Below are positions 19,676-36,809 of a stretch of DNA of 64,000 bases, piece after piece (position 1 is the stretch's first letter; each line of letters begins with the position of its first letter). Below the pieces are notes generated by a model. That model had not been told where the DNA came from. It saw only the letters and a program-made list of their open reading frames with translations, and did not search any database. Origin of the DNA: Vogesella urethralis (lineage in GTDB: Bacteria > Pseudomonadota > Gammaproteobacteria > Burkholderiales > Chromobacteriaceae); assembly GCF_007644045.2 (NCBI RefSeq), contig NZ_VMDW02000076.1:1-64000 (forward strand), written 5' to 3'. A program made the translations under genes and the position numbers.

Positions 19676-19933
19676 TTACGCGTCTTGCGAATCCGACTTG
19701 GCACCGTGGTGCTCGTGCGGAATGTTCACTGGGCGGGCAGGAACCACGGTGGAGATGGCGTGTTTGTACACCATCTGGGTAACCGTGTTTTTCAGCAACA
19801 CGACGTACTGGTCAAAGGACTCGATCTGACCCTGCAGCTTGATGCCGTTTACCAGGTAAATGGATACCGGCACGTGCTCCTTGCGCAGGATATTCAGAAA
19901 CGGGTCTTGTAACATTTGCCCTTTGGCGCTCAT
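19676..19933 (-). CDS. hfq: RNA chaperone Hfq
   Basis: Hfq is a hexameric Sm-like protein that pairs small RNAs with messages. The 85-residue product has the complete core: [21 protein letters not shown] at the N-terminal helix and first strands (Gln8, Asp9, Phe11 rim), Sm1 with [13 protein letters not shown] and Sm2 with the YKHAIS motif. A short acidic/His-containing tail follows ([13 protein letters not shown]). Its presence makes the trans-acting small RNA proposed at 36718-36809 plausible. Confidence 0.98.
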
Positions 19934-26661: not shown

Positions 26662-27402
26662 TCAGGTCCCGCTCAAGAGCTGTTGGGTTTCGCTGCTGTC
26701 CGGGTAGCGCTTCTTCAGCGCCTCGCCCAGCCGGAACGCGGTGGCGGCATCCTGTTTCAGCCGCGCCAGGCGCACGCCCAGCAGCAATTCGCCCGGGCCG
26801 AAACGCTTTTCGTCCTTGCCCAGGCGGTCAAAATAAAACTGGGCCAGCGTGGCATTACCGGCCTGCACTGCCAGACGGGTCAGTTCCCGCAACGCAGTAG
26901 CATCATTGGGCGAACGCCGCAGCACTTCCAGCAATAGCTGGTTGGCTTCGTCGTTGCGGTTCATGCTGGCCAGACACACCGCCTTGTTGGCCATGGCGGT
27001 CTGCGGCGAGGCAAAAAACGGGTCGGCCAGCGCAGTGTCGAAATGCTTCAGCGCTTCGTCGTAGCGCTTGCGCTCGCACAGGAACAGGCCGTAGTTATTG
27101 TTGACTTCGGGGTTGCCGGCATTGATGGACAGCGCCTTGCGAAAGGCGGCATCCGCCTCGCGGTCTACCCGCAAGGCCATATAAATCAGCGCCTTGGCCA
27201 GATAGCCAGGCTGGTAGCTGGGATCGAAAGCAATAGCCTGGTCGGCGTTTTCCATCGCCACACGCATATTGCCGTAGCGCATGTACTCGATGGCCAGCTG
27301 CGCACGTGTCTCGGCCTGCTCGCGCGGCGGGGCCGCAGCCAGCGCCAGTTGGGCGCTCAGCACGCCCGTCAGCAAAGCAGCAAGAACACGTGTTTTCAGC
27401 AT
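26662..27402 (-). CDS. pilF: Type IV pilus biogenesis TPR protein PilF/PilW
   Basis: PilF/PilW is the pilotin needed for assembly of the PilQ secretin in type IV pilus systems. The start at 27402 gives a 246-residue protein with a signal peptide ending near residue 22 and about six tetratricopeptide repeats, for example AAFRKALSINAGNPEVNNN and ALKHFDTALADPFFASPQ. There is no clear lipobox cysteine after the signal, unlike Pseudomonas PilF. The ATG overlaps the rlmN stop (TGATG). A type IV pilus would be the DNA uptake machine that the candidate uptake signal would need. Confidence 0.88.
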   Translation of the reverse strand: MLKTRVLAALLTGVLSAQLALAAAPPREQAETRAQLAIEYMRYGNMRVAMENADQAIAFDPSYQPGYLAKALIYMALRVDREADAAFRKALSINAGNPEVNNNYGLFLCERKRYDEALKHFDTALADPFFASPQTAMANKAVCLASMNRNDEANQLLLEVLRRSPNDATALRELTRLAVQAGNATLAQFYFDRLGKDEKRFGPGELLLGVRLARLKQDAATAFRLGEALKKRYPDSSETQQLLSGT

Positions 27403-28493
27403 CAGCCTTTCTCCTCGGCAATTCGGATCCACTTCTCCTGGCGGCGGGTCTTGTCCTGCACCTGGCCGGCCAGCTGGCCGCAAGCGGCGTCGATATCGTC
27501 ACCGCGGGTCTTGCGCACCGTCACCACGAAACCGGCTTCCTGCAGGATCTCGCGGAAAGCGCGGATGGCGTTGTTGCTGGAACGGTCGTAACCGGAGTTC
27601 GGGAACGGGTTGAACGGAATCAGGTTGAACTTGCACGGCACGTCGCGCACCAGTGCGATCAGTTCGCGAGCATGTTCCGGTCTGTCGTTCACCCCGTCAA
27701 GCATCACATACTCGAAGGTAATGAAGTCGCGCGGCGCTTTCACCAGGTAACGCTGGCACGCCGCCATCAGTTCTTTCAGCGGGTATTTCTTGTTCAGCGG
27801 CACGATTTCATCGCGAATGCGGTCGTTGGACGCATGCAGCGACACGGCCAGCGCTACCGGACAGGCCTCTTTCAGGCGGTCCATCTGCGGCACCATGCCC
27901 GAGGTGGACACCGTCACGCGGCGACGGCTGAGGCCGTAACCGTGATCGTCCAGCATGATCTGCAGCGCCGACACCACGTTGTCGAAGTTGGCCAGCGGCT
28001 CGCCCATGCCCATCATCACCACATTGGAGATGACGCGTTCGTTCTTCGGGGTCACCCCCATGGCCTTGTTGGCCCACCACAGCTGGCCGATGATCTCGGC
28101 GGTGCTGAGGTTGCGGTTAAAACCCTGGCGGCCGGTGGAGCAGAAGGTGCACTCCAGCGCACAGCCTACCTGGGATGATATGCACAAGGTGCCGCGATCA
28201 TCCTCGGGGATGAACACGGTTTCCACACCGTTGCCGGTGCCAACGTCCAGCAGCCACTTGCGGGTACCATCCTCAGACTCCTGCGACACCATCAGGTCCG
28301 GCACGCCCACTTGCGCCGTGTCGTGCAGTTTGGCACGCAGGCTCTTGGCAATGTCGGTCATGGCGTCGAAATCGGCTTCGCCCATCTGGTGCATCCAGCG
28401 CATGATCTGCTTGGCACGGAACGGTTTTTCGCCCATGGCGGCAAAGTGTTCGGTGAGCTGGGGCAGGTTGAAGTCGAGCAGGTTGGTCTTCAT
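27402..28493 (-). CDS. rlmN: Dual-specificity 23S rRNA/tRNA (adenine-C2) methyltransferase RlmN
   Basis: RlmN is a radical-SAM enzyme that methylates A2503 of 23S rRNA and A37 of some tRNAs. The 363-residue protein starts at 28493 ([13 protein letters not shown]). The cluster-binding CxxxCxxC motif appears as CALECTFC near residue 110, with [13 protein letters not shown] after it, and the catalytic cysteines lie in the C-terminal [17 protein letters not shown] segment. It is 88 bp after ndk. Confidence 0.97.
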
Positions 28494-35323: not shown

Positions 35324-36430
35324 TTACTGCAGGGTCTGGCTGACCGGCCAGTCGTCTGCGGTGTAGAACAGCGGGATGCCGTCGCGGCTTTCCGGCTGCA
35401 CCTGCGGCACCACCCGCACGTCGCGCACATGGCACTCGGCCATCAGCATGCGGAAATTGGTTTCGATCTGCGCCACCACGTCCTGCGCGGCCAACGGCCA
35501 CACGAAACCACCCCAGTCCTTGGCATTGCCTTCGGCCGAGATGGTGAAGTGCAGCTCGCCGTTATCGTGCGATGACACAATCGCCACCGGCTCCTGGCCC
35601 TGATCGCGCAGCTGGCGGATCTGGGTACTGGCAAACACCTGCAGCGCCACTTCCAGACGGGCAAAGTTGCCCGCCACGATGGCCTGCATCAGCGCCATCG
35701 GCGGGCGCGGAATCGGGAACAGCGTCACGCCGTCGGTTTTCAGCTGCTCGCCGAGGAACTTCATCAGCGGCACGCCCCAGGCGCCCACGCTGCCACCCAG
35801 TTTTACCGATGCCGGCGCGCCTTCCTGCTGGATGGCCACCCCCAGCAGGTAGCGCAGGAACACGCCTTCGTCCTTGGCGGTTACCGCCGCCGGCGGCAAG
35901 TCCAGCGGCACGCCACTGGCGGCGTCCTGCAGCTCGCGGGTCAGGCGGAAAATCTGGGTAGACGGAATGCCCACCACCGAGTCGGGGTGCAGCAGCTTGC
36001 CGGACAACCACGCTTCCGCGCCTTCGGTAAACAGGCCATGCTGGCGGAACAGCGCATTCAGGCCATCCACGTCGGCCAGCGTGGCCGGCAGCGTGACCTG
36101 GGTACGGCTACCGACGACCAGCACCACCGGCACGGCGAACACCACCGCATAACGGCCGCTGTCCGGGCGCTCGGCCACGTCGCGCAGCGCATCCCACAGC
36201 ACCTGGTACAGCGCCTGCGAGGTCACCATTGCCAGCGCTACCGACACCGGCAGCAGCTCGTTACGCTCCAGCATTTCCGCCAGCGTGGCGCGCAGCGATT
36301 CCTGCCACATGGCGCGGTCGTTCTGGCTGGGCGCATTGGCAATCGACTGCGCGTAATGGATCAGCATATTGGTGGGGGACGACTCGGGGTACTGGCGCGG
36401 ATCGGGCAGGACTGGGCTCAAATCACTCAT
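35324..36430 (-). CDS. Conserved protein of unknown function
   Basis: I do not recognise a family. From the ATG at 36430 the 368-residue product has no signal peptide and no transmembrane helix strong enough to call; a hydrophobic strand (YAVVFAVPVVLVVG) near residue 115 looks like a buried beta strand. It is mixed alpha/beta, rich in Leu/Ala/Gln, with a C-terminal segment HVRDVRVVPQVQPESRDG. It stands alone between glyA and the small-RNA region. Codon use is like its neighbours and the reading frame is clean, so it is very likely expressed. Confidence 0.8.
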   Translation of the reverse strand: MSDLSPVLPDPRQYPESSPTNMLIHYAQSIANAPSQNDRAMWQESLRATLAEMLERNELLPVSVALAMVTSQALYQVLWDALRDVAERPDSGRYAVVFAVPVVLVVGSRTQVTLPATLADVDGLNALFRQHGLFTEGAEAWLSGKLLHPDSVVGIPSTQIFRLTRELQDAASGVPLDLPPAAVTAKDEGVFLRYLLGVAIQQEGAPASVKLGGSVGAWGVPLMKFLGEQLKTDGVTLFPIPRPPMALMQAIVAGNFARLEVALQVFASTQIRQLRDQGQEPVAIVSSHDNGELHFTISAEGNAKDWGGFVWPLAAQDVVAQIETNFRMLMAECHVRDVRVVPQVQPESRDGIPLFYTADDWPVSQTLQ

Positions 36431-36682
36431 TGCTGACAACCGTCTGGATGGGCAAAGGCGGTATTTTCGCACAGGCCACGCCGCAGGGCGAGTGCGTGAT
36501 GTGCGGAATCGCACCTAGTGGCACCTTGGCCGCTGCCAAGTTATGGCTTATTAAAGGTTTGCCACTATTCAATAGGCTTATGGCCAGCAACGAGCAAGCG
36601 CTCAATTTTCACGTCCGAACATTTTCGAGTGTTCGATGCGCGACAATTTGTTATGTTTTTTCGCTTTTGTAAATTGTATACA

Positions 36683-36711
36683 TTGACACCCCAGGCCACG
36701 ATCTGGATAAT
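36683..36711 (+). promoter_or_regulatory. Consensus sigma-70 promoter for the candidate small RNA
   Basis: TTGACA at 36683-36688 and GATAAT at 36706-36711 are separated by exactly 17 bp, the best promoter match seen in the window. An AT-rich stretch lies upstream, and the dyad TGTATACA (36675-36682) abuts the -35 box. Expected start of transcription is about 36718. Confidence 0.8.
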
Positions 36712-36717
36712 CCGACC

Positions 36718-36809
36718 TCGTTGAGATGCAGCAATTGCTTCTTGATAGTTTCTCCTCTATTTCTCCTTTGTAGACTTGGCGCGGGCTTCAAACCCCGCGC
36801 ATTTTTTTT
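36718..36809 (+). ncRNA. Candidate ~90-nt trans-acting small RNA
   Basis: A transcript from the consensus promoter would run to an intrinsic terminator whose stem GCGCGGG (36779-36785) pairs with CCCGCGC (36794-36800) and is followed by eight T. No ribosome site or open frame lies in it. The unpaired middle reads TTTCTCCTCTATTTCTCC (about 36750-36767), with two CTCC cores complementary to Shine-Dalgarno sequences, a common feature of Hfq-dependent small RNAs including the Neisseria sibling RNAs. The poly-U end is also what Hfq binds, and hfq is in this window. I know of no family to name it after. Confidence 0.7.

Follow-up and report, generated by a model that had tools for sequence, protein, structure and literature searches.

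Identity and extent of the RNA gene

The closest described relatives of the RNA reported here are the sibling sRNAs NmsRA and NmsRB (alias NgncR_162/163), which have been studied in Neisseria and correspond to Rfam family RF02877 (PMC5362039, PMC9973317). Their published description is of three stem-loops with a CU-rich single-stranded segment (SSR1) and a CU-rich loop in the second hairpin (SL2), and in Neisseria SSR1 and SL2 pair with the Shine-Dalgarno sequences (SDs) of prpB, prpC, gltA, glyA and others (PMC5362039, PMC9973317), prpC being a validated NmsR target (PMC5362039). The RNAs of N. meningitidis (NmsRA/NmsRB) and N. gonorrhoeae (NgncR_162/163) are free-standing genes with a third hairpin (SL3) as terminator, and the locus described below is likewise built.

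An Rfam scan was run over the whole 64,000-nucleotide stretch of Vogesella urethralis DNA that was analysed (the window). RF02877 (NmsRb; other names RcoF1/NgncR_163) was the sole above-threshold match, located at 36718-36806 on the plus strand. It scored 91.3 bits (gathering score 52; E = 3e-13) and covered model positions 1-91 of 91; the alignment runs without a break from SSR1 across SL2 into the beginning of SL3, and SL1 differed but retained most of its pairs. On sequence, then, the RNA is a member of the known NmsRb family and not a new RNA. The initial annotation had proposed a 'candidate new' trans-acting anti-SD sRNA akin to the Neisseria siblings; the kinship is borne out by the full-length match, while the novelty falls away, as the family is already a named and curated one on which experiments have been done in Neisseria.

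Two other families came into question, namely the betaproteobacterial toxic small RNA (RF02278) and the alphaproteobacterial mmgR/suhB (RF00519), since CUCC loops and a terminator are common to both and the RNA scored 39.6 and 27.3 bits with them, respectively. Those scores, however, are below the gathering scores (50 and 41) and the hairpins are mismatched, whereas the NmsRb match is full-length; membership in either was rejected and is very improbable. The RF02278 RNAs (Burkholderia double-hairpin RNAs) have CU-rich anti-SD segments and a terminator in common with the present RNA, yet are shorter and without SL1. The reading we favour, at a probability of about 0.93, is that of a single-copy Neisseriales sRNA of the NmsRb family with its own promoter and terminator, which would act as an SD-pairing repressor of metabolic mRNAs, probably helped by Hfq.

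A consensus scan placed a sigma-70 promoter, TTGACA-17-GATAAT, at 36683-36711 (+), with the -35 element TTGACA at 36683-36688 and the -10 element GATAAT at 36706-36711, 17 nt apart. It agrees with 11 of 12 consensus positions; across the 3-kb region scanned, two sites reached at least 9/12 (versus 0.7 expected from shuffles), the second of them scoring 9/12. Both TTGACA and GATAAT are retained by nearly all homologues from the Vogesella family. The sRNA spans 36718-36806 (+; ~89 nt), with the transcript predicted to extend to about 36808, and closes with SL3, an intrinsic terminator plus poly-U at 36779-36808 (+) that exhibits the strongest covariation. Its stem (36779-36800) consists of seven GC pairs and is followed by an A and eight T. 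The promoter, the ~90-nt segment and the GC-rich terminator with eight T were all found where the initial annotation had put them. The overlapping ORFs are mechanical and unlike genes, since every base of the core is constant and the hairpins on either side of it vary by compensation and indels, and a coding reading was rejected.

In the family, the -10 element is embedded in a near-palindrome, GGATAATCC/CGGATAATCCG. Two possible operator sites were noted around the promoter: CGGATAATCCG (here TGGATAATCCG), which lies across the -10 in most same-family homologues, and TTGTATACA, including the palindrome TGTATACA, directly 5' of the -35 in the genus (within 36670-36717).

Fold, conserved core and distribution

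The predicted fold of the RNA has three hairpins (-24.7 kcal/mol; z = -2.43 versus shuffles), and fold and covariation agree with the three stem-loops, CU-rich SSR1 and CU-rich SL2 loop of RF02877. Hairpin SL1 (36720-36746, +), which carries compensatory changes among homologues, is followed by the single-stranded SSR1 (36747-36755, +), which harbours the first anti-SD (CUCC) segment and is invariant in homologues, and by hairpin SL2 (36756-36774, +), whose loop bears the second anti-SD (CUCC) segment and which never varies. The 'unpaired middle' of the initial annotation was therefore nearly right, in that the first CUCC is single-stranded but the second lies in the loop of a 5-bp hairpin.

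The core TTTCTCCTCTATTTCTCC, which begins at about 36749, was exact in 55 of 55 occurrences (35 distinct sequences) in a search across all homologous loci that tolerated up to three mismatches, and in an alignment of 18 representatives the columns through TTTGTAGA were also invariant. In the same alignment, double compensatory changes (one or more per pair) were seen at 12 of 25 pairs, with SL3 accounting for most of these pairs and SL1 for some; SL2, being without any variation, yields no covariation evidence. Fixed loops with drifting stems are the pattern of an RNA that works through its CU-rich segments. The anti-SD core in SSR1 and SL2 is identical to that of NmsRA/NmsRB and NgncR_162/163, whereas the SL1 and SL3 sequences have diverged from theirs.

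The segment was present in all 19 genomes searched of its own family (this genome and 18 others), while 12 genomes from elsewhere in the order gave no hit in a plain sequence search. Of 399 genomes of the order, 30 had a covariance-model match above cut-off. A single RF02877 match (E = 4e-15) was found in this whole genome, so the tandem sibling copies that are a feature of Neisseria are absent here; such copies are not required by the RF02877 Rfam model. In family group f44, most genomes of the main genus (g50, presumably Neisseria) had two copies, commonly 200-400 nt apart, and two Neisseria-like g50 genomes (G216 and G360) had single matches. Copy number varies within the order: two genomes of family group f51 (G248 and G278) gave three RF02877-like matches each, some of them sub-cut-off. 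Among the open-access results listed in searches on Chromobacterium and Vogesella, no paper dealt with an NmsRb-family RNA outside Neisseria.

A second, dispersed anti-SD sRNA candidate was noticed in the genome, at about 73595-73700(-) of G000:C69 (L165:296-401(-)). It features a 5' hairpin, a TCTCCTCCATCCTCC segment and a terminator that ends in seven T, has a fold z of -2.92, scores 39.4 bits with RF02278 and 27.4 bits with RF02877 (both sub-cut-off) and is conserved in the genus genomes read.

Genomic neighbourhood and possible origin of the locus

In this genome the sRNA is divergent from a gene pair of glyA and a DUF2863-like gene, an arrangement that recurs in two other family groups of the order. 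The adjoining member (35324-36430, minus strand), encoding a weakly DUF2863-like protein, is conserved beside the sRNA and is context rather than part of the RNA. This divergent neighbour adjoins the sRNA at every tested locus of family groups f1, f32 and f51, with glyA beyond it at many of these loci; within a flank of ~1.5 kb it was found at none of the Neisseria-like loci. The single copy in V. urethralis occupies another genomic place than the meningococcal and gonococcal RNAs, which form an adjacent sibling pair with demonstrated targets. We infer that the place beside the glyA-DUF2863-like genes may be older than the Neisseria place. A tentative scenario, with the odds leaning somewhat against it, is that in these Neisseriales the ancestral NmsR gene is a single locus on the glyA-DUF2863-like side, working with the dispersed C69 sRNA (73595-73663) as its non-tandem sibling, and that the nearby pair of Neisseria arose by a later move and duplication and acquired a partly different regulon.

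On the other side, sbcB lies ~390 nt downstream on the same strand, and the RNA could accordingly be taken for an sbcB leader or a read-through transcript instead of a free sRNA. This is the least probable of the alternatives and was rejected: the strong terminator is conserved, and in many relatives sbcB was not detected at that position, while the sRNA with its promoter and terminator, and the divergent gene, remain. That sbcB goes undetected downstream in many relatives indicates that the sRNA is independent of it.

Predicted targets and probable mode of action

Complementarity to SDs is common by nature and, alone, is weak evidence. The SD of prpC is complementary to SL2 (AAGGAGAAG here, ACAAAGGAGAA in relatives), with predicted pairing energies of -18 to -23 kcal/mol across the genus that were equalled by 0-21 of 200 shuffled seeds, and prpC is the best-supported single predicted target here. 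Among the predicted methylcitrate/TCA targets that characterize the function of RF02877, prpC was good, and prpB, gltA and glyA were weak: the prpB pairing in this genome was no better than that of shuffled seeds, and the SDs of glyA and gltA ranked 22 and 10, respectively, against the 52 window genes. The glyA of the window was rejected as a target on this ground.

The exact 10-nt anti-SD complement (ARAGGAGAAA) occurs at six places besides the sRNA gene, five of them immediately 5' of start codons, and a reversed control pattern gave no matches; as an SD-like sequence is expected before genes, these exact sites are candidates only. Within the window, the best anti-SD complementarity belongs to a tetratricopeptide-like gene (PilF-like, by eye) at 26662-27483(-), with GAGGAGAAAGG and -23.3 kcal/mol.

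The RNA might be a family member by descent that has other main targets here than in Neisseria, such as genes of amino-acid or aldehyde metabolism or of efflux with perfect AAAGGAGAAA sites. Such sites lie 5' of genes identified by eye as RraA-like, PTS transporter, outer-membrane efflux, alanine-racemase-like and aldehyde dehydrogenase, and neither glyA nor gltA looks like a good target here; prpC, however, is strongly predicted throughout the genus, and we regard this divergence of main targets as rather unlikely.

By analogy with the Neisseria siblings, the most likely action is NmsR-like, with CUCC segments pairing with SDs and repressing metabolic mRNAs such as prpC. In such a mechanism, the sigma-70 promoter would drive an ~89-nt RNA ending at its own terminator, and the anti-SD segments of SSR1 and the SL2 loop would pair with the purine-rich SDs of metabolic mRNAs, those of the 2-methylcitrate cycle and probably of amino-acid/TCA genes; ribosome loading would thereby be blocked, probably with the help of Hfq. 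Repression of many messages is plausible. The hfq gene is located in the same window, at 19724-19912(-), 17 kb from the sRNA; one of two Hfq signatures is seemingly absent from NmsRs (PMC5362039).

The NmsRb family, a metabolic sRNA studied in pathogens, is hereby extended to environmental relatives outside Neisseria. Given the conserved neighbourhood and the conserved prpC site, harmless strains can serve to test how the sibling pair of Neisseria arose and which genes form the family's core regulon.
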